From a bacterium (GTDB taxonomy: Bacteria; Lernaellota; Lernaellaia; JACKCT01): 44,015 bases of DNA. The DNA is taken from NCBI GenBank assembly GCA_019912885.1, contig JAIOHV010000213.1:1-44015 (forward strand). The letters run 5' to 3'. The position numbers and the translations under genes are program-made. The notes beneath the pieces are model-generated. The model was not told the DNA's origin. It searched no databases and saw only the letters and a program-made list of their open reading frames with translations. Within the stretch, counting starts at the first letter, position 1; each line of letters opens with the position of its first letter. Of this stretch, positions 1,495 through 41,046 are shown piece by piece.

Positions 1495-2214
1495 ATGGAC
1501 GCCCACGTCCGACCGTTCAGCATCCTTCCCCAGCCCGACGAGACAAGTTGCGGACCGACGTGCCTGCACGCGGTCTATCGCCACTTCGGGGACGATCATC
1601 CGTTGACCGATATCACCGAGGAGATCCGCTGGCTCTCAAGCGGGGGGACGCTCGCCGTTTTTCTCGGATGCCACGCGCTTTCCCGCGGATATCGCGCGAC
1701 GATCCACACCTTCAACATGGACGTCTTCGATCCCACGTGGTTTACATCCGGCGCCGACCTTGCCGCCAAATTGCGCGCGCAGCTTCTGGCCAAGCGCCGC
1801 GCGAAAATGCGCGTCGTGACCGAGGGATTCCTCGAGTTCTTGCGTCTTGGCGGGCAGGTTGTATTCGAGGACCTGACGACGCGCCTTTTGCGCCGCTATC
1901 TTGCCAAAGCCACGCCCGTCATCGCGGGCCTGTCCGCGACTTATCTCTACCGAGAAGCGCGCGAAGAGCCGCTCTCCGGCCGCGAGGACGACATCCGCGG
2001 CGAGCCCGTCGGCCATTTCGTCGTGCTTTGCGGTTACCGACCCGAAACGCGCGAGGTGACCGTGGCCGACCCGCTGCGCGACAACCCCTATTCGGATACC
2101 CACATGTACGACATCCACATCGAGCGCGTCCTCGGCGCGATCCTTCTCGGGACGCTGACGCACGACGACCATCTGCTGATCCTCGCGCCGCCCGCCGCGC
2201 CCGTGCGTTCCTGA
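1495..2214 (+). CDS. C39-like papain-fold cysteine peptidase
   Basis: This 239-residue protein has a clear C39/papain-like active site: Gln13 (oxyanion), Cys19 in TSCGPTC, His174 in VGHFVVLCGY and Asp192 in VADP. There is no signal peptide or membrane segment, so it should act in the cytosol, unlike C39 domains of bacteriocin ABC exporters. A GAGGAG ribosome site lies directly before the ATG, and a TAATAT -10-like box sits at 1458. The gene is followed after 3 bases by the ATP-grasp gene and then the GCS2 gene. Families of this kind are found with RimK-like and GCS2 ligases in predicted peptide-synthesis clusters. It may trim, recycle or transfer the product peptide; this role is inferred from context. 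Confidence 0.8.
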   Translation: MDAHVRPFSILPQPDETSCGPTCLHAVYRHFGDDHPLTDITEEIRWLSSGGTLAVFLGCHALSRGYRATIHTFNMDVFDPTWFTSGADLAAKLRAQLLAKRRAKMRVVTEGFLEFLRLGGQVVFEDLTTRLLRRYLAKATPVIAGLSATYLYREAREEPLSGREDDIRGEPVGHFVVLCGYRPETREVTVADPLRDNPYSDTHMYDIHIERVLGAILLGTLTHDDHLLILAPPAAPVRS

Positions 2215-2217
2215 GCC

Positions 2218-3672
2218 GTGAATATCTATCTCGTCGTCGAAAAGCCGAAGGACTGGCCGCTGGCCATTCCGGGCGTGCAGGTGATCGCCGCGCGGGAATA
2301 CCTGACCGGCCCGCCGGTGGCCGGCCGCGGCGTGCGCGTGTTCAACCTGTGCAAGTCGTATCGATACCAGAGCCTCGGATACTACGTGTCGCTTCTGGCC
2401 GACGCGCGCGGGCACAAGCCGCTGCCGCGAACCAGCACGATTCTCGACATGAAATCGCTTTCGCACGTGCGCTTCGTGTCCGAGGACCTGGACGATCTGA
2501 TCGAAAAGAGCCTTGCGCGTCTTGCGAGCGACCGCTTCACGCTGTCGATCTATTTCGGCCGGAACGTCGCCAAGCAGCACGATCGTCTCGCGTCCAAGCT
2601 GTTCGCCATGTTCCGCGCGCCGCTTCTGCGCGCGACCTTTTCGCGCAACGGCGGCTGGCATCTGACGAGCGTCGGTCCGATCCCCGCCGCGGACATCCCG
2701 CCGGAGCATCACCCCTTCGTGATCGAGGCGGCGAACGCGTTTTTCGAGTCGCGCTCCCAATCGAAATCCACGCGCCCCGCGCGCTTCGACCTGGCGATCC
2801 TCTACAGCGAGGACGACCCCTCGCCGCCGTCCGACGAGCGCGCCATCGCGAGGTTCGTGCGGGCGGCCAAACGCCTGTCCATCGAGGCGGAAATCATCGA
2901 CAAGACGGACTACGACCGCGTCGCGGAGTTCGACGGTCTGTTCGTGCGTGAAACGACAAGCGTGCCGCATCACACCTTCCGCTTCGCGCGGCGCGCCGTG
3001 TCCGAGGGACTCGCGGTCATCGACGATCCGGAATCGATCCTGCGCTGCTCGAACAAGGTCTTCCTCGCCGAGCTGCTCTCGCATCATCGCATTCACACGC
3101 CGCGCACCGTCGTCGTGCATCCGAACAATATCGACGAGGTGGAAAGGACGATCGGTTACCCGTGCGTCGTCAAGCAGCCCGACAGTGCGTTTTCGATGGG
3201 CGTCTTCAAGGTTGAAAACCGCGCCGCCCTCATCGAACGCGTGGACGCGCTGCTCGATCGCTCCGAGTTCGCGATCGCGCAGGAATTCCTGCCCACGCCC
3301 TTTGACTGGCGCGTTGGCGTGCTGGATCGGCAGCCGCTTTTCGTCTGCAAATACCACATGGCGTCGCGCCATTGGCAGATCATCCGACACAGCCGCGAAA
3401 AGGCGTATTATGGAAAGGTGGAAACGATCCCGGTCGAAGCCGCGCCGCCGCGCGTCGTCAGCGCCGCCGTCCGCGCCGCGAATCTCGTCGGCGACGGCCT
3501 CTACGGCGTCGACGTCAAGCTCGTCGGAGGCCGGCCCTACGTGATCGAGGTCAACGACAACCCGAACATCGAGTCCGACATCGAGGACAAGGTGCTCGGC
3601 GACGAGCTGTACGACCGCGTGATGCGCGCGTTCCTCGCGCGCATGAGCCGCAAGAGAGGAATCGGCCCATGA
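2218..3672 (+). CDS. RimK-like ATP-grasp ligase with N-terminal RLAN domain
   Basis: This 484-residue protein begins with GTG three bases after the peptidase stop. Residues about 1-160 fit the RLAN domain found in front of some RimK-type enzymes (FNLCKSYRYQSLGYYVSLLA). Residues about 290-470 form the ATP-grasp domain: VVKQPDSAFSMGVFKV gives the nucleotide-binding Lys and the Ser/Met-Gly loop, and FDWRVGVLD and VIEVNDNPNIESD supply the Mg-ATP acidic and Asn residues. Such enzymes join an amino group to a carboxylate, often adding Glu. The stop overlaps the start of the GCS2 gene (ATGA). The acceptor could be a protein C-terminus, a free amino acid or a peptide; the sequence does not say which. 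Confidence 0.85.
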   Translation: MNIYLVVEKPKDWPLAIPGVQVIAAREYLTGPPVAGRGVRVFNLCKSYRYQSLGYYVSLLADARGHKPLPRTSTILDMKSLSHVRFVSEDLDDLIEKSLARLASDRFTLSIYFGRNVAKQHDRLASKLFAMFRAPLLRATFSRNGGWHLTSVGPIPAADIPPEHHPFVIEAANAFFESRSQSKSTRPARFDLAILYSEDDPSPPSDERAIARFVRAAKRLSIEAEIIDKTDYDRVAEFDGLFVRETTSVPHHTFRFARRAVSEGLAVIDDPESILRCSNKVFLAELLSHHRIHTPRTVVVHPNNIDEVERTIGYPCVVKQPDSAFSMGVFKVENRAALIERVDALLDRSEFAIAQEFLPTPFDWRVGVLDRQPLFVCKYHMASRHWQIIRHSREKAYYGKVETIPVEAAPPRVVSAAVRAANLVGDGLYGVDVKLVGGRPYVIEVNDNPNIESDIEDKVLGDELYDRVMRAFLARMSRKRGIGP

Positions 3673-4907
3673 GGACGCCGCTTGGCCTGTTTGACGCCTA
3701 CGGCATCGAAATCGAATACATGATCGTCGACGACATCACGCTCGACGTGAAGCCCATCGCCGACAAGGTGCTCTTCCAGCTTGCCGGTGTGTACGCCCCC
3801 CAGCTCGCCGTTGGCGAACTGACGTGGAGCAACGAATTGGCCGCGCATCTGCTGGAACTGAAGGTGACCGACCCCGCGCCGACTTTCGCGGGCGTCGCCG
3901 CGCTGTTCGATTCCGGCGTCGGCCGCGTCAACGACATCCTTGCCGAGATGGGCGCGCGCCTTCTGCCCGGCGGCATGCATCCCTGGATGGATCCGGCGCG
4001 CGAATCCGGAATCTGGGAACACGACGGCCGCGCGATCTACGAGACGCTCGACCGCATGTTCGACGTCCGCCGCCACGGCTGGCTGAACCTCCAGAGCACG
4101 CACCTCAACCTGCCGTTTTCGGGCGACGAGGAATTCGGGCGTCTGCACGCGGCGGTGCGCCTGCTGCTGCCGATCATGCCGGCGCTCGCCGCGTCGAGCC
4201 CCGTGTTCGACGGCAAATTGGCCGGCGCACTCGACGCGCGGCTCGAACATTATCTCGTCAACCAGGAGGAGATCCCGTTTCTCGTCGCCGGCGGCGTGCC
4301 CGAACCCGTCTACACGCGCAAGGAGTACGGCGAGATCATCGCCCGCATCGAGCGCGAGATCGCCGTTCACGATCCCGCGCGCGTGTTGCGCGCCAAGTGG
4401 GTGAATTCGCGCTACGCCATTCCCCGCTTCGACCGCGACACCGTCGAGATCCGCATCCTCGACGCGCAGGAGTGCCCCAAGGCCGACATCGGCATCGGCG
4501 CGCTCATCGCGTCCGTGCTGCGTTCGATGACAAACGGGCGGTGGATCGATGTCGAAACGCAAAAAGCCTGGCCGACCAAGACGCTGCGCGAGATCGCGGC
4601 GGCGGTCATCAAGAACGGCGGCGACGCGCTGATGTTCGATCCGGAATATCTGCGCGCGTTCGGCCAGCCGACCCGGGCGCCGATGCGCGCCCGCGACTTG
4701 TGGGGGCATCTCTTCGACGCGCACAAGGAAGACCTTGCCGCGGCCGACGCGGACGCGTTCGAGGGCATCCGCACCATTGTGGAAAAGGGTTGCCTGGCCG
4801 CGCGAATCGTCGATCGGCTCGGACCCGACCCGTCGCCCACGCGCATCAAGGGCGTGTGGCGCGAGTTGTCCGAATGCCTCGCGGCCGGGGCGATGTATGG
4901 CGAATAG
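3669..4907 (+). CDS. GCS2-type carboxylate-amine ligase (glutamate-cysteine ligase-like)
   Basis: The 412-residue protein starts at the ATG that overlaps the ATP-grasp stop, preceded by AAGAGAGGA. Motifs of the GCS2/YbdK glutamine-synthetase fold are visible: YGIEIEYMIVD near residue 12 (metal-binding Glu), GGMHPWMDP near 100, LQSTHLNLPF near 142, and SRYAIPRFDRDTVEIRILDAQ near 245-265. GCS2 enzymes activate a carboxylate with ATP and couple it to an amine such as Cys or another amino acid. Paired with an ATP-grasp ligase and a C39-like peptidase, it is likely to make a small peptide or gamma-glutamyl compound. Ordinary glutathione synthesis is less likely, because the partner is the RLAN type rather than GshB. 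Confidence 0.8.
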   Translation: MRTPLGLFDAYGIEIEYMIVDDITLDVKPIADKVLFQLAGVYAPQLAVGELTWSNELAAHLLELKVTDPAPTFAGVAALFDSGVGRVNDILAEMGARLLPGGMHPWMDPARESGIWEHDGRAIYETLDRMFDVRRHGWLNLQSTHLNLPFSGDEEFGRLHAAVRLLLPIMPALAASSPVFDGKLAGALDARLEHYLVNQEEIPFLVAGGVPEPVYTRKEYGEIIARIEREIAVHDPARVLRAKWVNSRYAIPRFDRDTVEIRILDAQECPKADIGIGALIASVLRSMTNGRWIDVETQKAWPTKTLREIAAAVIKNGGDALMFDPEYLRAFGQPTRAPMRARDLWGHLFDAHKEDLAAADADAFEGIRTIVEKGCLAARIVDRLGPDPSPTRIKGVWRELSECLAAGAMYGE

Positions 4908-5034: not shown

Positions 5035-5076
5035 GTCCATCCTGTCCATTCGGTCTGTGACGTCCATGATGTCCAT
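5035..5076 (-). repeat. ATGGACNNN nonamer array, copy 2 (inverted)
   Basis: On the plus strand GTCCAT appears at 5035, 5044, 5062 and 5071, with a decayed unit at 5053, keeping the 9-base period. It sits between the GCS2 stop and the first Asp-rich lipoprotein. The remainder of the 290-base gap holds only the -10-like box at 5131. Confidence 0.8.
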
Positions 5077-5136: not shown

Positions 5137-5196
5137 GCGCACCTCAATTTCCATTGGCGGCCGCGTCCCATGTGCGGACCGGCGGAGGAAGGGATC

Positions 5197-5976
5197 ATGA
5201 CCAAGTGGTGGATTCTTGTGCTCGTCGCGATCGCGGCCCTTTCGGTTTCCATCGTCGCTTGCGGCGATGACGACGACGACGACGATGATGATGACGCGGC
5301 GGACGACGACGCGGACGACGATGACGACGACTCCGCCGACGACGATACCGGCGCCGACGACGACATGGATGACGACGCCGATGACGACGATATGGATGAC
5401 GACGACGCCGATGACGACGACGCCGACGACGACACGGACGAAGGCACGCCGATCTCGCAATACGCGCTGTTGCTCGAAAACGCGAAGGTCAATATCGCGA
5501 CCGGCGGGATCGACTTCGACCGCGCGTTCATCTCGACGTCCGGAACGATGACGATCGACCAGATCGGCACGACGACCGGCGCGACGTTCGAAGGTTCGCT
5601 TCAGACCGTCGGCTTCACGCAGGCCGAAGTCGATTTTGACGCCGGCACCATCGGCATCCTGCAGGACGGCGACACCGGCGTGCTCGCGCTCGAGGAAGTG
5701 ACCGCCACCATCACCGCCGTTCCCGTGAAAAAATCGTTCGACGTTTCCGGCACGCCGTCCGGCGCCAAGGCCGAAGCCTTCAACATGAGCGAGTTTACCC
5801 AGTGCGCTTCGCCGACATGCGTTTCCGCGGCGTATGCGTCGGTGACCGGCGTTTATCAGGTCTCCGAATACACCGACGGCATCCTCGCCACGAACGACTG
5901 GATGCTCATCTGGGCGATCCCCGGCGATGCAACCAACGGTTCGGTGTACGACTTGACGATCGAACTGGACGAATAG
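5197..5976 (+). CDS. Asp-rich lipoprotein, function unknown
   Basis: The start is the ATG behind GGAGGAAGGG, which gives a 259-residue product with a standard lipoprotein signal (MTKWWILVLVAIAALSVSIV, lipobox IVAC). The mature end runs C-G followed by about 65 residues that are almost all Asp, with a few Ala, Met, Ser, Gly and Thr. A globular domain of about 165 residues follows, with hydrophobic/polar alternation typical of beta structure and two Cys in FTQCASPTCV that could form a disulfide. The Asp tract would form a charged, possibly Ca-binding spacer between the lipid anchor and the domain. No family is recognised. A long terminator hairpin follows the stop. Confidence 0.75.
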   Translation: MTKWWILVLVAIAALSVSIVACGDDDDDDDDDDAADDDADDDDDDSADDDTGADDDMDDDADDDDMDDDDADDDDADDDTDEGTPISQYALLLENAKVNIATGGIDFDRAFISTSGTMTIDQIGTTTGATFEGSLQTVGFTQAEVDFDAGTIGILQDGDTGVLALEEVTATITAVPVKKSFDVSGTPSGAKAEAFNMSEFTQCASPTCVSAAYASVTGVYQVSEYTDGILATNDWMLIWAIPGDATNGSVYDLTIELDE

Positions 5977-10627: not shown

Positions 10628-10961
10628 ACCCGGCACGTCAGGCGCCTCATGCGATTCGCGGAAATGACCCGCTCCAAGCGTTCATTTTCCTTGACTTTTC
10701 CGCCCCTGAGGTCCTTAATGCCTCCCTATTTGAAATGCGCGGTGTAACCCGCGTCCATGAACATCCGGCGATCGCCGGGGGGCTTTTTCCGGCGCGTTGG
10801 CCGGAGTGGTGAGGGTAGGGCGTTCCGCGAAGCGAACCCCCTTTTCCAAAATGAATGGTTTGTCATGACGACATCCGGTTACGTCATTCATCGACTTTCG
10901 CTTTCGGCCGATGCTTCGCGGTCGGCCGCTAATACGAACCAGAAAAGGTAGGGAGGTCCCA
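10628..10961 (+). other. Intergenic leader region with hairpins
   Basis: No gene is supported in these 334 bases. They hold a weak promoter-like pair (TTGACT at 10691, TTAATG at 10715), a small CGCGG/CCGCG stem near 10740-10755, and a perfect 14-base palindrome (CCGGCGATCGCCGG, 10765-10778) followed by G-run and CTTTTT. The latter could be a weak terminator for rocD or part of a structured leader for the lipoprotein gene at 10962. No riboswitch class was recognised. Confidence 0.4.
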
Positions 10962-12776
10962 ATGAAACACACATTCACTTTCATGCTGGTCGCGATTCTC
11001 GCGGCCCTCTCGCTCGCCGTCGCGGGCTGCTCGTGCGGCGACGACGACGACGATGACGACGACGGCGCGCCGGATGACGACACCGGCGACGACGACGCCG
11101 ACGACGACACCGGCGACGACGATGCCGATGACGACGACATGGACGACGACATGGACGACGACGATACCGGTGACGACGATACCGGCGACGACGACACCGG
11201 CGACGACGATACCGGCGACGACGATACCGGCGACACCGAGTTCAGCTCGTTGAGCTGCCCCATCTCGGATCCGGAAAGCATCGGCTCGGCAAACACGGTC
11301 GGCGGCGGCTCGGCGACCACGACCGTCGACGTCTACGTTTTCGACGACAATGACTGCTCGGCCATCCAGAATGCGGACGTCATTCACGGCGACACCGTTT
11401 ATCAGACCGACGTCAACGGCCATGCGGTCGTGACGCTGACGGACGCCGAACAGACCATCACCGCGTACGCGGAAGGCTACTGGTCCTGGACCTACAAGGT
11501 CGATGCGGCCGTCATGTATTTCCGCCTGCGTCCGGACAGCTTCGGCAACGCCTACACCGACTCGGGTGACGGCACGTTCCAGGACGAGGGCGGCTCGGAC
11601 CTCGGCCTGACCAACCCCACCCTGTTCGGCCTGTTCTCGAACCCGATCTATCTCGGCGTCGCACTGCCCGGCCTCGCGCGCGCCGATCTGCTGTCGATGG
11701 ACTTCGACGGCCTGCTCGCCACGGACACCTTCGATCTGACGCTCGATCTCGGCGACGGCCCCGCGGTTACCGAGGCGCCGCGTAATATCTATCTCCCGGC
11801 GCTCAACCTCAGCATTCCTGGGCTGTTCAGCGTCACGGGCACCAACGAGGATTACGTCCTTCCGGTGCGCACCGGCGCCTCCGTTTCGCCGATCGAGGGC
11901 TTTGTCCTGTCGGCGAGTGTCGGCGAGTTGTTCGACAACGTCGGCGAGATTCTCGCGGTCGTTGCGTGCGTCACCGGCGGCGGCGACATCCTCGAGTGCG
12001 TCGAACCGCTCGTTCTTCCGCTCATCAACGACGCGCTCGCCTTCAGCCATGTCGGCGCGCGCCCGGACTGGAACGGCACCGGCGATCCGTCGATGACCAC
12101 GCAGGAGACCGGCGGCAACACGCTGTCGATCAACGTCGCCAATGAGGACGCCAATTTCGACTATCTCGCGATCTTCGCGGCCGAAATTCCGAACCGCGCG
12201 CTGCTTCCGCTGGGCGTCGGCATCGTGGATTCCGGGTCCGTGGATGTTGACTACGCCGACGTCCCCGACGGCGATTACCTTGCGGTCGTGGGCGCGACGG
12301 ACCTGTTCGCCTCCGGCTTCACGAGCGTGAATTTCTCGTTCGCGTTGAAATACGGCGAGAGCATCGCGGACATGACCGCCAAGGCGTCCTTCGACGCGGA
12401 TACCGATTTCCTGCCGAACTTCAACGGCGACAATACCGGATACGACGACGTGACCGGCGAGATTTTCTGGGAACTCGAGGCCGGCCCCGCCAAGGCCACC
12501 GCCGACGTCTTCCAGATCGTCTACGTCCCGGATTGCGAGGACTGCCCGGTCGTGCTCGCGCAGGTGCCCGGCGCCGACTCGAGCTTCCAGCCGCCGGTTG
12601 ATGATCTCGGCATCACGCCAAGCGACGCCGACATCGTCGTCGTGCTGGGGATCGACTACCCCGCGGGCGTGGATCTGCAGGAGTACAACCCGGCCGGTCT
12701 GCTCGGTTACAACAGCAGCGCCGTCAACATGTGGACGAACTTCGACATCCTCGGGTTGCTCGGCGGACTGTTCTAG
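10962..12776 (+). CDS. Large Asp-rich lipoprotein
   Basis: The ATG behind GGGAGGT gives 604 residues: a lipoprotein signal ending in lipobox LAVAGC, then SCG and about 70 residues of Asp-rich repeats. The DDDTG pentamer (15-base DNA unit) is repeated several times near residues 65-92. The rest (about 510 residues) has a Carboxypeptidase-regulatory-like beta segment early (VYVFDDNDCSAIQNADVIHG then YQTDVNGHAVVTLTDAEQT), which is a typical surface beta-sandwich pattern. Further beta-rich sequence and a C-C pair near 522-525 follow. No enzyme motif is visible. It is likely an outer-membrane or periplasmic lipoprotein with a flexible anionic stalk. It is monocistronic, closed by a strong terminator. 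Confidence 0.75.
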   Translation: MKHTFTFMLVAILAALSLAVAGCSCGDDDDDDDDGAPDDDTGDDDADDDTGDDDADDDDMDDDMDDDDTGDDDTGDDDTGDDDTGDDDTGDTEFSSLSCPISDPESIGSANTVGGGSATTTVDVYVFDDNDCSAIQNADVIHGDTVYQTDVNGHAVVTLTDAEQTITAYAEGYWSWTYKVDAAVMYFRLRPDSFGNAYTDSGDGTFQDEGGSDLGLTNPTLFGLFSNPIYLGVALPGLARADLLSMDFDGLLATDTFDLTLDLGDGPAVTEAPRNIYLPALNLSIPGLFSVTGTNEDYVLPVRTGASVSPIEGFVLSASVGELFDNVGEILAVVACVTGGGDILECVEPLVLPLINDALAFSHVGARPDWNGTGDPSMTTQETGGNTLSINVANEDANFDYLAIFAAEIPNRALLPLGVGIVDSGSVDVDYADVPDGDYLAVVGATDLFASGFTSVNFSFALKYGESIADMTAKASFDADTDFLPNFNGDNTGYDDVTGEIFWELEAGPAKATADVFQIVYVPDCEDCPVVLAQVPGADSSFQPPVDDLGITPSDADIVVVLGIDYPAGVDLQEYNPAGLLGYNSSAVNMWTNFDILGLLGGLF

Positions 12777-13041: not shown

Positions 13042-13974
13042 ATGGCGCATGTCATCAGTCTGTTTTCCGGTTGCGGCGGAATGGACCTGGGGTTTCGCGG
13101 CGGCTTCGTTTTCGGCGGACGGCGATACGCGCGCACGGGTTTCGATATCCTCGCCGCGGTGGACGCCGACGCCGAGGCTGCGTCGCTCTATCGGTTGAAC
13201 ATCGGCGCGATTTGCCGCGCGCGTGTGGAAGATGTCGCGATCTGGCCGCGCGCCGGCGTTGTGATCGCCGGGCCGCCGTGCCAGCCATTCTCCGCCGCCG
13301 GAGTCAAACAAGGCGCGAACGACGCGCGCGACGCCATGCCGGTCCTTATCGAGGCGATCGGCGACATCGCGCCGAGCGCGTTCGTCATCGAAAACGTGCC
13401 CGCGCTCGCCGAGCGAAAGCCATTTCGGCAAGCGTTCGCCGAACTGACCGGCGCGCTCGCCGCGTTGGGCTACGAGATCCGCGCGCGCGTGCTCGATGCG
13501 GCCGATTTCGGCGTTCCGCAGCACCGGCGCCGCCTTTTCATCGTGGGGCTGCGGCCCGATCAGGCATGCCCCGATCCGTTCCCCGCGCCGACGCACGGCG
13601 GAGCGCTTCGCCCGTTTGTGCGCGTGCGCGACGCGATCGCCGATCTGGGCGTTCCGGGCGATCGCCATTTCGCGAAACGCGACGCAACATTGCGACGACT
13701 CGCCGAGGGCGAACGGCGGCATCCGCGATTCGGCGCGTCGTCGCGGCGTGTTTTCGCGGATCGCCCGTTCCCGACGATCAAGGCGTCGGACACGGCGGCG
13801 CCGCGCCTGATTCATCCGTGGTTCGACCGGGCGCTGGCGATGCCGGAGCTACTGCGCGCGCAGTCGTTTCCCGACGATTTCATCGTCCCGCGGCGCACGC
13901 CCTCGATCGGCAACGCGGTGCCGCCGGTGCTGGCCTGGCATATCGCGCGAAGTATCGCCCGGATCCTGAAGTGA
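13042..13974 (+). CDS. DNA (cytosine-5) methyltransferase, orphan
   Basis: The 310-residue protein has all key C5-methyltransferase motifs in the usual order: motif I ISLFSGCGGMDLGF at 5-18, motif IV GPPCQPFS with catalytic Cys80, motif VI ENV at 117-119, motif VIII QHRRRLFIVG at 160-169, motif IX LRAQSFPDDF at 271-280 and motif X GNAVPP at 290-295. The target-recognition part (about 171-265) is short, so the site is probably short; it cannot be named. No restriction endonuclease, Vsr or partner gene flanks it, so it may act in gene regulation or be a remnant of a mobile cassette. Short-repeat arrays lie on both sides. No good ribosome site precedes the ATG; TAGGGT abuts it. Confidence 0.93.
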   Translation: MAHVISLFSGCGGMDLGFRGGFVFGGRRYARTGFDILAAVDADAEAASLYRLNIGAICRARVEDVAIWPRAGVVIAGPPCQPFSAAGVKQGANDARDAMPVLIEAIGDIAPSAFVIENVPALAERKPFRQAFAELTGALAALGYEIRARVLDAADFGVPQHRRRLFIVGLRPDQACPDPFPAPTHGGALRPFVRVRDAIADLGVPGDRHFAKRDATLRRLAEGERRHPRFGASSRRVFADRPFPTIKASDTAAPRLIHPWFDRALAMPELLRAQSFPDDFIVPRRTPSIGNAVPPVLAWHIARSIARILK

Positions 13975-15150: not shown

Positions 15151-17190
15151 CTAGCAGCCGCAACACGCTCCGCCGGTCACCGCGCCTTCGGGCCAGCCGG
15201 GTCCGCCCTCGTCCTCGTCGACCGGGATATCCGGATCCGAGTCCGTGTCATCGTCCAGGGTCGCTTCGTCGTCGTCGTCGTCGGCCGGATCCTCGGGCGT
15301 TTCGCACGAACGGTTGAACTCGTCGCAGCTTTCGCCCTCGGGGCACGGATTACCGGAATGCGTGCAGATATCCGCGTCCTCGTCACAGCCGTCGTCGCCG
15401 TTGCAAAACAGCGCGTCGTCCAGGCACGGCACGAGGATTTGCGTGCACATATCCGTTTCCTCGTCGCAGAACTCGACGCCATTGCAATATTGCCCGTCAT
15501 TCAGGCATTGCGGCCCGGTCGTCCCGCACTTGTCGTTCACCTCGTCGCACGATTCCGCGCCGTTGCAGAAGACGCCGTCGTCCGCGCAGTCGGGCACGGC
15601 CACCTGCACGCACGTGTCCGCCGCCTCGTCGCAGGCCTCGTCGCCGTTGCACCACGCGCCGTCGTCCGCGCACGGATCGTCACCCGGCCCGCACACGTTT
15701 TCGTCCATATCGCAGACCTCGGCGCCGTTGCAGAAGATGCCGTCGTCGCACTCGCCGTCGTTCTGGCAGTCGCAGAAATCGAGCCCGTCGCAATTCTGGT
15801 CGATGCGGTCGCAACGGATTTCGGTTTCGCCCGGATTGATATCGGGATCGAAGTCGTTGCAGTCGTCGCCGTTGCACTGCGGGCCTTCGTAGCCGTCCAG
15901 GTCGTTGTCGCACTCGACAAGAACGCCGTAGAGCGGAATGAACTCCGCGCCGGCGACCACGCCGAAGCTGTTGAAGACGGACAAGGGCTGCGTTCCGGTG
16001 ACGTGCCACGTGGACGTATAACACGGCACGAGCTGATGCCCGCCCTCGCCGAGCGTGCCGCTCCACACCACCACGTCGTCGCCCGGCGCCAGCGTGTTTT
16101 TCGTGTCGGTAACGACGATGTCGTTGTCGTCGAGATACGAGAACAGGTCGAACTGCCCGTTCACGGACGTGAAGAAAAACTCCGTGCCGATGCGCGTGCC
16201 GTCTTTGTCCGGCATGATGTCCATGTAGTGGTAATCCCCCGCGGCGCCGCTGAAGGGATTGACCTGCACGGCGACCGGCGCGTCCGCCGTCACGGTGAAA
16301 TACAACTCGTTGAAGGTCTGGAACGCGGTCTGCCCGCTCGCCAGCGTTCCGGACTTGACGATCGCGGAGGTCTTCGAGTTGCGCACCTCGTAATTGTTTC
16401 CGTCCGTATAGCTCGTGATGAGAAGATCGCCGCTGCCGCTTGTCGTCCCCATGTAGCCGTGAAATTCCGTGCCCGTGAACAGGCCGGATTTCGACGGCAC
16501 GGAATAGCCGATGTCCGTGAAGTTGAGAACGGAGATGATCCCCGTGGAAACGGTCTTCACGTACCTGTTGCGCGTCTGCGCGGGCGGCACCTTCCACGTC
16601 TCGCCGTCGGCGAGAACCCTGGACGCCAGCAGCGTCCCGTTGACCATGTTGAAGACTTCGACGAGGTTGTTGTCGCCGTAAGACGAAACGTACTGCGCCT
16701 CTCTCGAGTCGCCGAATCCGCCGCGCTGATAGCTGTAGAATTTGATGCCCGTGCCGATCGAGGCGTCGGTGAGCGCATGGTAGCCGGTGATGTTGTCGTC
16801 CGCGGCGCCGACAAGGACGCTCACGAGGTCCGAGGCCTCCAGCCGATACGTCCCGACCGGGACGTCGAAGCGGACGTAGCCGCCGTCGGAAAGGCTCGAC
16901 GCCGCGAGGATGTTGCCGCCCTGGTCGTAGAGCGTGAACGTCGTGCCGTCGTGAAATCCGAATATGAAGATGCGGTCGAACGCGTAGAAGTAGCTCGTGT
17001 TCGGCTGCGGCGCCGCCTGCGCGCCTTTCGGAAACGCGTAGTAGTTCGGCGGCGGAACGTACTCCTCCACCGGTTGCAGCAGCATCTTCGACCCGTTGTT
17101 CGGATACGCCGGCGCGTCCGTCAACGCGAACGCGGCCGCGGCAATGGCCAGCACGGCCAGGATCAGCGCAAATCGTCCGAAATATCGCAT
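15151..17190 (-). CDS. Secreted Cys/Asp-rich repeat protein, paralog 1
   Basis: The ATG at 17188-17190, behind GGGAGGG, gives 679 residues with a Sec signal (MRYFGRFALILAVLAIAAAA). Residues about 30-435 form a beta-rich domain ([20 protein letters not shown], then [14 protein letters not shown]) shared with the paralog at 17519. Near 445 comes a MopE-type metal-binding motif ([20 protein letters not shown], then CDRIDQNCDG). It is followed by about six Cys-rich units of the form DD-x-FCNGxExCD. The tail is acidic and Pro-rich and ends VTGGACCGC. MopE repeats are known from secreted, sometimes copper-binding proteins. The product is probably cell-surface or extracellular, stiffened by disulfides. 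No enzyme residues are seen. Confidence 0.85.
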   Translation of the reverse strand: MRYFGRFALILAVLAIAAAAFALTDAPAYPNNGSKMLLQPVEEYVPPPNYYAFPKGAQAAPQPNTSYFYAFDRIFIFGFHDGTTFTLYDQGGNILAASSLSDGGYVRFDVPVGTYRLEASDLVSVLVGAADDNITGYHALTDASIGTGIKFYSYQRGGFGDSREAQYVSSYGDNNLVEVFNMVNGTLLASRVLADGETWKVPPAQTRNRYVKTVSTGIISVLNFTDIGYSVPSKSGLFTGTEFHGYMGTTSGSGDLLITSYTDGNNYEVRNSKTSAIVKSGTLASGQTAFQTFNELYFTVTADAPVAVQVNPFSGAAGDYHYMDIMPDKDGTRIGTEFFFTSVNGQFDLFSYLDDNDIVVTDTKNTLAPGDDVVVWSGTLGEGGHQLVPCYTSTWHVTGTQPLSVFNSFGVVAGAEFIPLYGVLVECDNDLDGYEGPQCNGDDCNDFDPDINPGETEIRCDRIDQNCDGLDFCDCQNDGECDDGIFCNGAEVCDMDENVCGPGDDPCADDGAWCNGDEACDEAADTCVQVAVPDCADDGVFCNGAESCDEVNDKCGTTGPQCLNDGQYCNGVEFCDEETDMCTQILVPCLDDALFCNGDDGCDEDADICTHSGNPCPEGESCDEFNRSCETPEDPADDDDDEATLDDDTDSDPDIPVDEDEGGPGWPEGAVTGGACCGC

Positions 17191-17254
17191 GAACGAACCC
17201 TCCCAGGCGGCTCGCAAGATGTGTTTGGGGCGCCGGGAATATGGCACAGGTTCC

Positions 17255-17518: not shown

Positions 17519-19567
17519 CTAACACCCGCAGCAATTGCCTCCGGTCACCTCGCCTTCGGGCCAGCCGGGTCCGTCGTCTTCTTCGTCCGCGGGGATGTCG
17601 GGATCGGCGTCTTCATTCGGATCGCCGACGGGCGGGTCGTCTTCCTCGTCGTCGTCGGGCTCGGGATCGTCGTCCGGCGGCTCGCAGCCGCTTGCCGCCT
17701 CGACGCACGTCTCGCCGTCGGGGCACGGGTCGCCGGTGTGCACGCAGTTGTCGATCTGCTCGTCGCAAACCTCGTCGCCGTTGCAGAAAAGCGCGTCGTC
17801 CGTGCAGGGCGCCGGGCCGCTCGCGCAGGAGTCGGTCTCCTCGTCGCACGCCTCGGAGCCATTGCAGAACTGGCCGTCATCCGCGCACGGCGGATCGGTG
17901 GAGACGCACGCATCCGCCGCCTCGTCGCAGGATTCGGCGCCGTTGCAGAACAGGCTGTCGTCCGCGCAGTCCGGCGGATTCACGTGGATGCAGGAGTCGA
18001 TCTGCTCGTTGCACGCCTCGCTGCCGTTGCAGAACAGGCCGTCATCGCCGCACGGATCGTCGCCCGGCTCGCACTCGTTGATCGCGAGGTTGCACGTCTC
18101 CTCGCCGTTGCAGAAGATGCCGTCGTCGCAGTCCGCGTCGCTCGCGCAGTCACACAGATCCTCGCCGTCGCAATCCTGGTCGATGCCGTCGCAGCGGATC
18201 TCCGGCGCCCCGGGGTAGATTGTCTCGTCGAAGTCGTTGCAATCGTCGCCGTTGCACTGTGGGCCGTCATGCCCGTCCCCGTCGTTGTCGCACTCCACGA
18301 GGATGCCGTAGAGCGGGATGAACTCCGCGCCCGCCTGCGTGCCGAAGCTGTTGAACACCGTCAGCGGCTGCGTCGCCGTGACATGCCACGTGGATTTGTA
18401 GCACGTCACCCGCTGGTGGCCGCCGACGCCGAGCGTGCCGTTCCAGACCGGGATATCGTCGCCCGGCGCGGTCGTTCCGCGCGTGTCCGTCACCGTGATC
18501 TGGTTGTTGTCGACGTACGAAAACAGGTCGAACTGGCCGTTCACCGACGCGAAGAAGAACTCCGTGCCGATGCGCGTGCCGTCCTCGTCCGACATGACGT
18601 CCATGTAGTGGTAATCGGGAACCGTGCCGCTGTACGGATTGATGGCGACGGCCAAGGGCGCGTCGGACGTCACGTGGAAATACAGTTCGCTGTACGTCCG
18701 ATACCACGTCTGCCCACGGCTGAGCGTTCCGTTGGCGACAAGGGAGCCATTGTTCGCGTTGCGCACCTCGAAATTGTTGGCGTCCGCGTAGCTCGTCAGG
18801 AGCAGATCGGCGGGGCCGCTCGTCTCCCCCATGTAGCCGATGAAATCGGTGCCGGTGAACAGCCCGGACTCCGAGGGCACGCTGTACCCGATGTCGGTGA
18901 AATTCAGAACGGCGATTTTCTTGGTCGCGGTCGTCTTGACGTATTTGTTGCGCACATCGCCCGCGGGCACCTTCCAGACGGTGCCGGCCTGCATCAGCTT
19001 GGAGGTGATGAGGTTGCCGTTGGCCATATTGTAAATCTGCACGAGCGTGTTGGGCTGATACGCCATCACGAACTGCGTCTCCGCGTTGTCGAGAAAATCG
19101 CCCATCTGGTAGGAGTAAAATTTGGTCCCCGTGCCGAGCGAGGAGTCCGTCAGCGCGTGGTAGCCGGTGATGTTGTCGTCGGCGGTGCCCACCAGCACGC
19201 TCACCAGATCGGACGCCTCCAGGCGGTAGGTGCCGACGGGCACGTTGTACCGCACGTAGCTGCCGTCGTTCAGGCTCGACGCCGCGATCGGATTGCCGAA
19301 CATGTCGTAGAGCGTGAACGTCGTGCCGTTGTGGAACCCGAAGATGAAGATGCGGTCGAACGCGTAGAAGTAGCTCGTGTTCGGCTGCGGCGCCGCCTGG
19401 GCAATTTTCGGGAACTCGTAGTAGTTCATCGGCGGGATGTATTCCTCGACCGGCTGCAACAGCAGGCGCGAACCGTTTCGCGCCGGCGCCGCGCCGACAA
19501 GAACCAGCGCGGACACGGCAATCCCCAGCGTCGCGAGTAGAAGGACGAACCGTCCGGATGCGCGCAT
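17519..19567 (-). CDS. Secreted Cys/Asp-rich repeat protein, paralog 2
   Basis: The ATG at 19565-19567, behind GGGGAGGG, gives 682 residues with signal [20 protein letters not shown]. It is collinear with the 15151 product: the same beta-rich N-terminal domain ([20 protein letters not shown]), the same MopE-type site ([16 protein letters not shown]) and six or seven FCNGxExC units. The acidic Pro-rich tail ends VTGGNCCGC. The ribosome-site leader GGGAGGGTTYGTTCATG is also shared. The pair clearly arose by tandem duplication, and both are transcribed in the same direction with about 330 bases of repeats between them. The closing GG-x-CCGC is short, with no transmembrane helix or Arg cluster, so it is not a standard MYXO-CTERM or LPXTG sorting tail. 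Confidence 0.85.
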
Positions 19568-19733
19568 GAACAAACCCTCCCCAAAGGGCAAACTGTTCTT
19601 TTTTGCGCGCAAATTATCGCACAGGCCAATCCAATAGGGAATTGCGAATGGAATACGCGGGAGCGAATTTCGGGAGCCCCCGCGGGGCGTCCGTCAGACC
19701 CTTCGCGCCCGCCCAAGCTCCCCGGATACGCCC

Positions 19734-21537: not shown

Positions 21538-21579
21538 ATGGACACGATGGACGGATTGGACATGATGAACGGCATGGAC
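21538..21579 (+). repeat. ATGGACNNN nonamer array inside an ORF start
   Basis: Five units (21538, 21547, 21556, 21565, 21574) keep the 9-base period and supply the ATG and first 14 codons (MDTMDGLDMMNGMD) of the next gene. Confidence 0.85.
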
Positions 21580-33733: not shown

Positions 33734-33808
33734 GTTGTCATCCTGAGCGAAGCGAAGGATCTCGCTGTTTAACCCAATGAGACCCTTCGCTTCGCTCAGG
33801 GTGACAAC
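33734..33808 (+). repeat. Inverted-repeat element, locus 3
   Basis: The left arm GTTGTCATCCTGAGCGAAGC (33734 on) pairs with a right arm ending GTGACAAC at 33808; the loop is about 15 bases. The arms are about 29 bases. It is the most perfect hairpin of the family in this window. Confidence 0.92.
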
Positions 33809-33866
33809 AGCGCTCAGGGCGACAACAGCGCTCAGGGTGACAACAGCGCTCAGGGCGATAACACCG
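33791..33866 (+). repeat. 18-bp tandem repeat derived from the inverted-repeat arm
   Basis: Four and a part copies of AGCGCTCAGGGYGACAAC start at 33791 (variant), 33809, 33827, 33845 and 33863. The first copy is the right arm of the hairpin, so the array arose by its amplification. Confidence 0.9.
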
Positions 33867-33943
33867 CTCACGGCAGCAAGGGCGGGATGGTACGTTTCCG
33901 CGAATCTTTCTCCTTGCGCGTCGCGCCGACGCGCCCTTTCGCG

Positions 33944-33949
33944 TAAAAT
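33944..33949 (+). promoter_or_regulatory. TAAAAT -10 box, possible leaderless start
   Basis: TAAAAT ends 7 bases before the ATG at 33957, which would put the transcription start on or next to the start codon. No Shine-Dalgarno sequence or -35 is visible. Confidence 0.35.
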
Positions 33950-33956
33950 GCCCTTC

Positions 33957-35144
33957 ATGACGCTGACGCGACACCGTTTCCCTTTTGCGTTTCTGGCGGC
34001 GCTTGCGGCGCTCGCGCTTTCCGCCGCGGGCTGCGGCTGCGGCGACGATGACGACGACGACTCGTCCGATGGCGGAGACGACGACGCGGCCGGTGACGAC
34101 GACGACGGGCCCGCCGGATACGACGAGCCGATCCCCGACGATCTTCCGGCCGAGGTGCCGCAATTCGGCGATGACGAAACGCGAAAGATCGTCGTCATCG
34201 GCACCGCGGACGACGGCCTCGATGTCCCGCGCGATCTCGATTTCGATCCGGAGCGCCCGGGCCGGCTGTGGACGGTGAACCGCGCGACCGACGGCACGGT
34301 CATCTATTTCGACGCGGGCTCGGACGAGCAGACGTCCGACGAGATCATCGACCGCTACGCCAACCACTTCATGGAGGAAGTCAGTTCCATCGCGTTCGGC
34401 GCGCCGGGGACGTTCGCGACCTGCCAGGAATCGCGCAATACCTACAACGGCCAGGCCGAGCCCAACGATTTCATGGGGCCGGCGCTGTGGCCGAGCGATC
34501 TCGACGTCTACGCGGCGGTGCATCAGTTCGACAACCTGCTCGGCAGTCACCTCGACATGCTTCACGAAAGCCCGCTTTGCATGGGCATCGAGCACGACAC
34601 CGCCAACGTGTATTGGGTGTTCGACGGCATGCACGGCAACATCGTGCGCTACGATTTCAAGGAAGATCACGGGCCCGGATACGACGACCACTCCGACGGC
34701 ATCGTGCGCCGTTACACGGAAATCGGGCTGACGCGCGAACCGGACGTGCCCGGGCATCTGGCGATGGATGATGAAACGCGGTGGATGTACGTGGCCGACA
34801 CCGGCGCCGCGCGCGTCGTGCGCTTCGATACCGAGTCCGGTGCGTTCGCGGGCGATCTGTCCGGCGCGAAGGAGCCGCTCGCGGAGTATTCCGAATATCG
34901 CGGCGCGAACCACGAGACGTTCGTCGATGGGGGATTCGAGACGCCCTGCGGTGTCGCGGTGCACGAGGGCATCATCTTCGTGAGCGATTACGAAACGGGC
35001 GACATCGCGGGATTTGACGTCACCGGCGCCGAGATCGACCGCGTCAATGTCGGCGCGGGCGTCATGGGCATCGAGATCGGCCCCGACGGGCGGCTGTGGT
35101 TCGTCAACGCGGACGAGAACACGGTGAGCGTGATCGAGCCGTAG
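33957..35144 (+). CDS. Asp-rich lipoprotein with beta-propeller (NHL/SMP-30-like) domain
   Basis: I use the ATG at 33957; one three codons earlier is equally in frame. The 395-residue product has a signal MTLTRHRFPFAFLAALAALA, lipobox LSAAGC, then GCG and an Asp tract (DDDDDDSSDGGDDDAAGDDD). The rest reads as repeated propeller blades: DVPRDLDFDPERPGRLWTVN, LCMGIEHDTANVYWVFDGMH, DVPGHLAMDDETRWMYVADT, PCGVAVHEGIIFVSDYET and MGIEIGPDGRLWFVNADENT. These resemble NHL or SMP-30/gluconolactonase-type blades. Metal-binding Glu/Asn positions are not assignable, so it could be a binding scaffold. The gene is followed after 12 bases by a convergent toxin gene. Confidence 0.78.
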   Translation: MTLTRHRFPFAFLAALAALALSAAGCGCGDDDDDDSSDGGDDDAAGDDDDGPAGYDEPIPDDLPAEVPQFGDDETRKIVVIGTADDGLDVPRDLDFDPERPGRLWTVNRATDGTVIYFDAGSDEQTSDEIIDRYANHFMEEVSSIAFGAPGTFATCQESRNTYNGQAEPNDFMGPALWPSDLDVYAAVHQFDNLLGSHLDMLHESPLCMGIEHDTANVYWVFDGMHGNIVRYDFKEDHGPGYDDHSDGIVRRYTEIGLTREPDVPGHLAMDDETRWMYVADTGAARVVRFDTESGAFAGDLSGAKEPLAEYSEYRGANHETFVDGGFETPCGVAVHEGIIFVSDYETGDIAGFDVTGAEIDRVNVGAGVMGIEIGPDGRLWFVNADENTVSVIEP

Positions 35145-36760: not shown

Positions 36761-37615
36761 TCACTCCTGATGATCGTACTCCCCGCGCGCGAGGCTGTGG
36801 CGCTGGGGGTCCCAAGCGTCGCCCAGGTAGTCATCGGGCACCGGCACGTCGAACGGCGTGGCGTACCGCCCCGGGCGCATCAGGTAGGCGTCGGTCTGGT
36901 AAGACAGGACGTTCATCTTGTCTTCGAGCCGTTTGCGGCAGCGCTCGATCGCGGCTTCGTCCGCGCCGTCCGGAACGATGACGTGATCCGGGTCCATCGC
37001 GCACACGAAACGCGCGAACGGCTTGGGTATCACCGTGCCGTCCCACGTTTTCGGCCGCCAGCATGGCCACACCGCCGCGGCCGACGGAACGATCGGAACG
37101 CCCGAGCGCGCCGCGAGGATCACCGTCCCCATCTTGCATCGCTGCGCCGGGCCTTTGGGCGCGTCGCACGCGAGCGCGCAGTCGTACCCTTCGCGCGAAA
37201 GATCGACGATCTCCGCGAGCGCCTCGCGCCCGAAGCGCGTGCTTGATCCGCGCGGCGCGCAATATCCCAGCCGCCGGATAAGGCCGGCCGCCCACTCGCC
37301 GTCCTTGCTGCGGCTCGCGATGCACGCGGGATTGTACAGGCCGTTTCGCCGCCGCCGTCCGACGTACATGAGCTGCAGCAGATCGCGATGCCACGCGGCG
37401 TAAACCGCGCGGTGGTATTTCTGCTTCATGCGGATTTCGGCTTCCGTGCCGTGGTGCTCGTAGCGGCACGTCGCGTAGATCGCGCGCATGATGAGCGAAA
37501 GAATCCACGTGCCGATCCACGCCATCGCGCGATACCAGAACGGCACCGGAAAATTCTCCGACGGCATCCGCTTGCGCGGCAGGTTTTTGCGTTTGTAGGT
37601 GAGTTTTTCCGCCAT
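36761..37615 (-). CDS. DUF374/LPLAT-type acyltransferase
   Basis: The ATG at 37613-37615 gives 284 residues; the ATG six codons earlier is an alternative. An amphipathic/hydrophobic segment (MAWIGTWILSLIMRAIYAT near 30-48) precedes the LPLAT-like core: YHRAVYAAWHRDLLQLMY (His/Asp), ACIASRSKDGEWAAG, RGSSTRFGREALAEIV and CALACDAPKGPAQRCKMGTV. The order SRSKDGE, RGSS and DGPxGP-like matches DUF374, seen in lipid A or phospholipid acyltransferases. It would act on the cytosolic face of the inner membrane. No lpx gene is near. It is followed on the same strand by the AbiE operon, with only about 90 bases in front of that operon's start. Confidence 0.75.
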   Translation of the reverse strand: MAEKLTYKRKNLPRKRMPSENFPVPFWYRAMAWIGTWILSLIMRAIYATCRYEHHGTEAEIRMKQKYHRAVYAAWHRDLLQLMYVGRRRRNGLYNPACIASRSKDGEWAAGLIRRLGYCAPRGSSTRFGREALAEIVDLSREGYDCALACDAPKGPAQRCKMGTVILAARSGVPIVPSAAAVWPCWRPKTWDGTVIPKPFARFVCAMDPDHVIVPDGADEAAIERCRKRLEDKMNVLSYQTDAYLMRPGRYATPFDVPVPDDYLGDAWDPQRHSLARGEYDHQE

Positions 37616-37673
37616 GAATTTCCGCGCCGCCATACTTCCCGCGCGCCTGGCGCGCGTCAAGAAATACGGACGG

Positions 37674-37703
37674 GTGACGCGCGTGCGCCGCCGGGCGTAG
37701 AAT
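37674..37703 (+). promoter_or_regulatory. Candidate promoter with a near-leaderless transcript
   Basis: GTGACG (37674-37679), an 18-base spacer and TAGAAT (37698-37703). The ATG at 37712 is only 9 bases after the -10, and there is no Shine-Dalgarno sequence. Confidence 0.4.
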
Positions 37704-37711
37704 CACGGGCC

Positions 37712-38635
37712 ATGTCCATCCGATTTCTCGCCGTTTTCGCGCTCGGCGCGTTCGCGTTCGCGTTGATTCCCCTTACCGGCTGCGGTTGCGGGGACGACGA
37801 TGACGAAGATGACGACGATGACGGCGGCGGCGCATTTCCCTACCGCGAGGACGGCCGCTATCCCTTCGGATACCTGCTTTCCGGCGACGGGCCGGCGATG
37901 GCGCGGCTCTCCAATTTCAACGTCGCGGTCTTCGACGTGTACGAGGACGGAGACGAAGACCTGATGGACGCGCTCGCGGATGCGGGCACGCTCGTATTGT
38001 CGTACGTGAATCTCGGCTCGCTGGAATCCTGGCGTTCGTTCGCCGGCGAGTTCGAGGATCTGTGCCTCGCCGCGTACGAAAACTGGGAAGACGAATGCTG
38101 GGTGGACGTGACCGACGCCGGCTGGCAACAGAACTTCATCGACGAGGTCTGCTGGACGGCCTGGGACGCCGGCGCGGACGGGTTTTACATCGATAACGTC
38201 GATATCTTCGCGCTTTACCCGGACAAGGACGTTCGCGACGCGCTCGTCGATGTGCTCGCGACGTTGCGCGATGAATTTCCCGATGCCTACATCGCCGTGC
38301 AAAACGGCGGCGATCTGCTTTTGGACGACGAGGTGGGCGGCGACGCCCGCGATCTCATCGACGCGACGAGCCGCGAAGACGTGAGCTACATCCCCGACTT
38401 CGACGCGCCGGATGGCGGCGATGACACCTATCGCGCGGTCGACGGAGATGAGCGCGACGCGACGCTCGACGAACTCGATGGGCTCGCGGACGATCTGGAT
38501 GTCTACACCGTCGACTACACCAACGACGTCGCGCAGATGCTTGACGCGGTCGAGTTTTCGCGCGGGCACGGGTTCACGCCGTTTGTCGGCGACACGAATC
38601 TCTCACGGCTCGACTTTTACCCGCCGCTTGATTGA
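37712..38635 (+). CDS. Asp-rich lipoprotein, GH114/endo-alpha-1,4-polygalactosaminidase-like
   Basis: The 307-residue product has a signal MSIRFLAVFALGAFAFALIP, lipobox LTGC, then a short Asp tract (DDDDEDDDDD). The domain matches GH114-like TIM barrels: NVAVFDVYEDGDEDLMDALA, LVLSYVNLGSLESWRSF near 115, DECWVDVTDAGWQQNFIDEV near 146, GADGFYIDNVDIF near 174 and a final TPFVGDTNLSRLDFYPP. In this family the Asp of GFYLDN and a nearby Glu/Asp are the likely catalytic acids. Polygalactosamine or related exopolysaccharides are known substrates. It is anchored to a membrane and acts outside the cytosol. It lies in the same direction as the oxidoreductase gene. Confidence 0.78.
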   Translation: MSIRFLAVFALGAFAFALIPLTGCGCGDDDDEDDDDDGGGAFPYREDGRYPFGYLLSGDGPAMARLSNFNVAVFDVYEDGDEDLMDALADAGTLVLSYVNLGSLESWRSFAGEFEDLCLAAYENWEDECWVDVTDAGWQQNFIDEVCWTAWDAGADGFYIDNVDIFALYPDKDVRDALVDVLATLRDEFPDAYIAVQNGGDLLLDDEVGGDARDLIDATSREDVSYIPDFDAPDGGDDTYRAVDGDERDATLDELDGLADDLDVYTVDYTNDVAQMLDAVEFSRGHGFTPFVGDTNLSRLDFYPPLD

Positions 38636-40895: not shown

Positions 40896-41046
40896 ATGGA
40901 CGAAATGGACCGATTGGACATTATGGACGGGATGGACAAACCAGACGCCCCGTCCGGCGTGCGGCAAAGCGCATTTTTTATCGTCGCGCTCCGCCCGTGT
41001 CCACAGGGGCGCCGTCCATATTGTCGATCATGCCCATAATGTCCAT
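40896..41046. repeat. Pair of inverted ATGGACNNN arrays between divergent genes
   Basis: Five units on the plus strand at 40896-40937 and four on the minus strand at 41014-41046 (GTCCAT, GTCGAT, GCCCAT, GTCCAT) keep the 9-base period. They fill most of the space between dapL and the TMTC-like gene; the latter's ATG at 41039 lies in the second array. Confidence 0.85.

Follow-up and report, generated by a model that had tools for sequence, protein, structure and literature searches.

What do three tightly packed genes near the start of a Lernaellota contig make, and do they form a unit at all? The contig (GenBank assembly GCA_019912885.1, JAIOHV010000213.1, positions 1 to 44,015 of the forward strand), called the window here over its whole 44,015 nucleotides, comes from a genome of 4.8 Mb that is 99% complete. 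Between positions 1495 and 4907 it encodes, on one strand and in this order, a C39-like papain-fold enzyme, an RLAN-domain ATP-grasp ligase and a GCS2-family ligase. This trio is a real conserved enzyme unit, and the window holds a member without the N-formylglutamate-amidohydrolase-like (FGase) gene that forms a fourth partner elsewhere. Its features are as follows.

1495..2214, + strand: C39-like papain-fold enzyme (239 amino acids, start ATG, stop TGA)
2218..3672, + strand: RLAN-domain ATP-grasp ligase (484 amino acids, start GTG, stop TGA)
2290..2727, + strand: RLAN domain (PF14401 match on the genome, above cut-off)
3046..3555, + strand: ATP-grasp domain, residues 277-446 (PF02655 and PF08443 matches)
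3669..4907, + strand: GCS2-family (glutamate-cysteine ligase family 2) amide ligase (412 amino acids, start ATG, stop TAG)
3669..3672, + strand: ATGA start/stop overlap of the two ligase genes, read from the sequence

The C39 and RLAN genes are separated by 3 bases (2215-2217), while the RLAN and GCS2 genes join through the ATGA overlap, with the GCS2 start taken as the ATG at 3669; the program-made list of open reading frames (ORFs) places it at a TTG at 3372, within the RLAN gene. A sequence-only reading of the window had described a peptide-ligase cassette with this spacing, these three families and an intact Cys19, His174 and Asp192 in the C39-like protein. The layout was reproduced when coordinates were re-derived from the sequence, Pfam confirms the families, with all three proteins exceeding the curated cut-offs, and the three residues are present together with Gln13. 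No signal-peptide-like hydrophobic stretch lies near the N-terminus of any of the three proteins, which are therefore consistent with a cytosolic location.

Conservation of the cassette was assessed in 84,980 species genomes, scanned from a seed alignment that contained just four ATP-grasp proteins. Of the 495 confirmed relatives, the 80 top-scoring ones were examined as loci; one (L088) shares a contig with another (L018), leaving 79 distinct loci, a set that leans towards the near subfamily because the best-scoring RLAN relatives were retained. Counted with trimmed models, C39 is found in 73 of these, GCS2 in 71 and both in 69, a strong linkage of the three families whose co-occurrence the sequence-only reading had proposed to check; FGase occurs in 45 and all four families in 43. 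Neighbours are mostly at most 30 nucleotides apart (C39-RLAN in 63 of 73 pairs, RLAN-GCS2 in 64 of 68, GCS2-FGase in 39 of 44) and the usual order is C39-RLAN-GCS2-FGase, the exceptions being L036 and L059 (Chlamydiia), where C39 is last, and L050, where an extra gene is inserted. According to record titles, hosts include Planctomycetota, Beta- and Gammaproteobacteria, Desulfobacterota-type bacteria, Balneolota, Spirochaetes, Nitrospirae, Verrucomicrobia, Chlamydiia, Acidobacteriota, Sumerlaeota and Hydrogenedentota. Because the same order recurs across phyla, the arrangement of the trio is beyond chance, and with linkage so conserved the earlier idea of a peptide-ligase pathway holds up. Four loci (L034, L065, L067 and L095) carry RLAN without any partner; contig ends explain some missing partners, since L030 and L098 stop just past RLAN and L041, L064, L078 and L079 do not allow a call on FGase. 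Transporter and regulator genes do not recur around the cassette. The divergence of C39, RLAN and GCS2 is correlated (r 0.75-0.82; 0 of 500 permutations), as shared ancestry alone predicts, so this correlation is not evidence of a shared pathway.

A less biased sample of 336 genomes across the domain contains RLAN (PF14401) in 24 and cassette GCS2 (threshold above 400 bits) in 16 (~5%), and in all 16 the GCS2 gene adjoins RLAN; the GCS2-model matches in 13 other genomes are weak (below 40 bits) and represent other GCS2 families. C39 adjoins RLAN in 13 of the 24 RLAN genomes. Cassette FGase (threshold above 200 bits) is present in 11 genomes, all of them within the 16 with cassette GCS2, and 7 others match its model more weakly (below 100 bits). 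Treating genomes as independent, the hypergeometric P values for these co-occurrences are 3e-17 and 8e-22. Nine of the 11 FGase genes lie directly beside GCS2, whereas that of G094 is ~1.3 kb off and that of G234 is on another contig and has internal stops.

This fourth gene mostly follows GCS2 directly. Each of the 42 downstream proteins in the alignment has a PF05013 (N-formylglutamate amidohydrolase) match, and the solved structure nearest by sequence is 2odf (Atu2144), itself uncharacterised. FGase was not found in the window genome (G000) by the same search that finds it in the family relatives G001 and G002. In G001, RLAN stands at a contig end and a GCS2-FGase pair on a different contig, probably one locus broken by assembly.

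What each enzyme may do was approached through its residues, family and predicted fold. The C39-like protein belongs to Peptidase_C39_2 (PF13529; E 4.3e-10, 40.8 bits against a cut-off of 24), and its tetrad is invariant in aligned homologues with a residue at the site (Gln13 75/75, Cys19 75/75, His174 76/76, Asp192 76/76). The solved folds nearest to its AlphaFold model (pLDDT 94) are C39 peptidase domains (PCAT1, 8vp5; Z score 16.6, root-mean-square deviation (rmsd) 2.0, 141 residues aligned), followed by the pseudomurein endoisopeptidase PeiR (8z4h; Z 15.1, rmsd 2.3, 149 aligned). Phytochelatin synthase Alr0975 (6tho; Z 14.7, rmsd 2.6, 159 aligned, 15% identity) resembles the model in fold only. 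Foldseek gives a like ranking, and Z scores against papain and C39 enzymes span 11-16.6. By residues and predicted fold the protein is thus a papain-fold cysteine enzyme, a fold that alone shows no function.

In the second protein, an RLAN domain (PF14401; E 7.5e-45, 152.7 bits, cut-off 25) is N-terminal to a RimK-type ATP-grasp domain (PF08443; E 5.4e-7, 29.8 bits, cut-off 21), the architecture of RLAN-ATP-grasp ligases. K280, K319, D432, E444 and N446 are each kept in 83/83 aligned ATP-grasp homologues. The fold comparison covers residues 187-481, i.e. the ATP-grasp part, modelled at pLDDT 90; its nearest folds are LysX (3vpd; Z 28.5, rmsd 2.2, 267 aligned), ArgX (3vpb; Z 28.3) and RimK (7qys; Z 27.7), with GshB scoring lower (Z 22.3). 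The GCS2 protein matches PF04107 over profile positions 2-277 of 291 (E 4.5e-24, 85.7 bits, cut-off 21), is the sole GCS2 match of the window genome, and has N55, E56, E63, K65, R253, R256, E260, R262 and D265, which are without exception in aligned homologues. Neither ligase reaches the cut-offs of the NCBIfam models for named enzymes: the ATP-grasp protein scores 25.4 against 331 and 56.2 against 143.4 for the RimK S6 modification enzyme (PRK10446 and TIGR00768) and 58.4 against 275.6 for the LysX equivalog TIGR02144, while the GCS2 protein reaches at best 45.4 against 371 for the YbdK and glutamate-cysteine ligase equivalogs and 43 against 176.4 for TIGR02050. Since these scores are far under the cut-offs, the functions of RimK, LysX, YbdK and glutamate-cysteine ligase are not transferable to the cassette.

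The explanation we favour, with belief and doubt about evenly balanced, is that the trio serves a widespread pathway of the cytosol in which a short peptide, blocked at its amino end, is assembled without ribosomes and probably also trimmed or remodelled. GCS2 would, to judge from its family, activate a carboxylate at the expense of ATP and bond it to an amino acid through the latter's amino group; the gamma-carboxyl of glutamate is the most likely carboxylate. The RLAN-ATP-grasp ligase would then extend the free carboxyl end by one amino acid, as GshB does for glutathione, and the papain-fold enzyme, through an acyl-enzyme at Cys19, may hydrolyse or transfer the peptide. In FGase-bearing hosts only, and so outside the window genome, the FGase-like metal amidohydrolase would cut the N-acyl or glutamyl end. 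The gene unit, its conservation, the invariant catalytic residues, the FGase partner and the independence of glutathione genes are observed; we infer all that goes beyond them.

RLAN loci with other partners fit such a capped amino end, with acetyl in place of glutamyl. Among eight RLAN genomes without GCS2, two (L141 and L143) have RLAN adjoining a GNAT-DUF3335 fusion, one (L139) has GNAT fused to RLAN, one (L142) has an adjoining GNAT gene and four have none of these partners. The following are ATP-grasp genes, RLAN-type or related, with GNAT or GNAT-DUF3335, fused or adjoining:

L139:3264-5243
L141:5073-7705
L143:6065-8381

Like the window, L141 and L143 pair RLAN-ATP-grasp with an adjoining papain-fold domain, but a GNAT acyltransferase takes the place of GCS2, and the window C39 protein lies under the DUF3335 cut-off (PF11814; 12.2 bits against 25). 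An N-capped dipeptide is likewise made by ATP-grasp and GNAT enzymes in the N-acetylglutaminylglutamine amide (NAGGN) osmoprotectant pathway, which is not known to involve RLAN, GCS2 or C39. DUF3335-GNAT fusions have been proposed as possible peptide ligases (PMC10318531). A GNAT-nitrilase fusion gene also lies near the full cassette at three loci (L018:13390-14973; L050:6302-7861, inside the cassette; L097:496-2079). As a separate observation, a small acidic ORF of 91 amino acids precedes a lone RLAN gene in two Nitrosomonadales-type genomes (L065:7602-7877; L067:7587-7862).

Several points weigh against this blocked-peptide pathway. Three of the 16 GCS2-RLAN pairs are without C39 in the stretch examined, four of the 24 RLAN genomes (G023, G170, G074 and G265) carry RLAN with no partners found, and 34 of the 79 loci, as well as the window genome, are without FGase. 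The putative gamma-glutamyl chemistry is read from a family name, and the nearest folds of the ATP-grasp part, LysX, ArgX and RimK, act on proteins. Because their acceptors are proteins, the strongest alternative is that the cassette tags a protein reversibly: RLAN-ATP-grasp would add amino acids to a protein end or side chains, GCS2 would extend or branch them, and the papain-fold enzyme and FGase would remove them. We rate this tag as unlikely, although a ligase/deconjugase pair suits it and a ligase-plus-peptidase arrangement has a counterpart in RimK/RimB. In the part of PMC12239564 at hand, RimK/RimB and Rlo of Pseudomonas share with the cassette an ATP-grasp ligase with a peptidase partner, but that peptidase is a retropepsin-like aspartic protease and no GCS2, C39 or FGase is named there. 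Against a tag, neither a conserved small protein nor any further non-enzyme gene recurs beside the cassette, and the FGase family takes its name from a small-molecule substrate. GshA and other GCS2 ligases use free amino acids, though PafA, a relative of GCS2, acts on proteins.

A bolder form of the peptide pathway would make it an uncharacterised peptide-cofactor route that spans phyla and runs alongside that of glutathione. Its papain-fold enzyme would then be a transpeptidase, not a protease, acting like phytochelatin synthase to extend or recycle a gamma-glutamyl peptide; we regard this as quite unlikely. Very unlikely is a mainly catabolic or salvage role, in which acylated or gamma-linked peptides would be degraded by peptidase and amidohydrolase and their pieces reused by the ligases: two potential hydrolases do stand beside two ligases and FGase is a degradative family, but linkage is most constant between the two ligases (71 of 79 loci), and transporters and regulators do not recur nearby.

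Glutathione synthesis remains to be weighed, as it too combines GCS2 with ATP-grasp, and phytochelatin synthase, papain-like in fold as well, can work on gamma-glutamyl peptides; the cassette differs in the RLAN/RimK-LysX fold of its ATP-grasp enzyme and in some hosts occurs alongside a true GshA-GshB pair. The window genome has no match to GshB (PF02955), and hence no sign of this member of the glutathione pathway. Among the 16 sampled cassette genomes, one (G293) has a GshB match of at least 100 bits, and matches of ~60 bits in G141, G149, G282 and G286 are probably RimK-like cross-matches. Ten cassette genomes, picked from the 79 loci as named isolates and for group spread, were tested for glutathione genes: five have a strong GshB, four of these with GshA (PF08886) directly adjoining, and PF04262 is absent from all ten. 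In four of the ten, including Thiobacillus thioparus DSM 505 and Nitrosomonas communis Nm44, the adjoining GshA-GshB pair lies away from the cassette, which indicates that the cassette and glutathione synthesis are separate in those hosts. The ordinary glutathione-type activity that the sequence-only reading had set against its own proposal thus appears disfavoured, as far as gene content can tell, both by these separate pairs and by a host without GshB. That the cassette makes glutathione or a direct substitute, GCS2 in the role of GshA and RLAN-ATP-grasp in that of GshB, is accordingly most improbable: the formal logic of two such ligases, a window genome with one GCS2 and no GshB-family match, the 15 of 16 sampled genomes without GshB at 100 bits or more, and the likeness of the C39 model to an enzyme acting on glutathione speak for it, but 4/10 tested hosts keep a full GshA and GshB elsewhere and cassette GCS2 lies far under the glutamate-cysteine ligase cut-offs. 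The product might still be a thiol other than glutathione.

How new, then, is the cassette? Amidoligase clusters that Iyer et al. are said to have set out in 2009 reportedly linked ATP-grasp and glutamine-synthetase-fold ligases with unrelated peptidases. PMC4431377 notes linked ATP-grasp and COOH-NH2 ligases and cites earlier work on them (Iyer 2009), so the general class was already predicted. The sequence-only reading had named the ATP-grasp/GCS2 pairing as known from predicted amidoligase clusters; the FGase partner, present in 45/79 loci and absent from the window, had escaped it. Searches of the available literature found no paper on the C39-RLAN-GCS2-FGase cassette and no characterised product. 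That one gene order is kept in Planctomycetota, Proteobacteria, Spirochaetes, Balneolota and other groups points to a real uncharacterised metabolite or modification, and because culturable hosts carry it (Thiobacillus thioparus, Nitrosomonas communis and Rhodohalobacter), the cassette is open to experiment at once.

A short ORF or fixed substrate protein beside the trio had also been proposed as something to look for. Comparison by short-sequence BLAST of 1417 small ORFs, within 700 bases on each side of the cassettes, found no conserved one, although a fast-evolving peptide could escape this search; recurring small ORFs are the C39 N-terminus or are confined to close relatives, and small groups look like wrong-frame reads of shared genes. 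As no conserved small ORF adjoins the cassette, a dedicated precursor is disfavoured. The upstream PseG-like and RDD genes, which it had been thought might belong, do not: tblastn (E 0.01) matched neither in any other locus examined, and 181 non-coding bases with simple repeats separate the pair from the C39 gene. The PseG-like frame remains open as far as the start of the contig. PADLOC-DB defence models, which cover listed systems, match neither the three proteins nor FGase.

Just 5' of the C39 gene, AATTCCC occurs four times in tandem (1421-1448). Tandem period-9 TGGACnnnn repeats lie at 1338-1369, 21539-21561 and 40897-40937 (+) and at 5035-5075 (-), two of them flanking the trio; spaced pairs of this motif number 9 forward and 2 reverse; 100 mononucleotide shuffles gave a mean of 0.01 in a one-strand count. 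Elsewhere in the window, several predicted lipoproteins have a Cys followed by long poly-Asp runs (5170-5976, 10911-12776, 33777-35144 and 37388-38635), a style that repeats in this genome, and an ORF at 13042-13974 resembles, by eye, a C5-cytosine DNA methyltransferase. Two similar adjoining ORFs of ~697 amino acids with cysteine-rich repeats (15151-17247 and 17519-19612, - strand) appear to be a tandem duplication.

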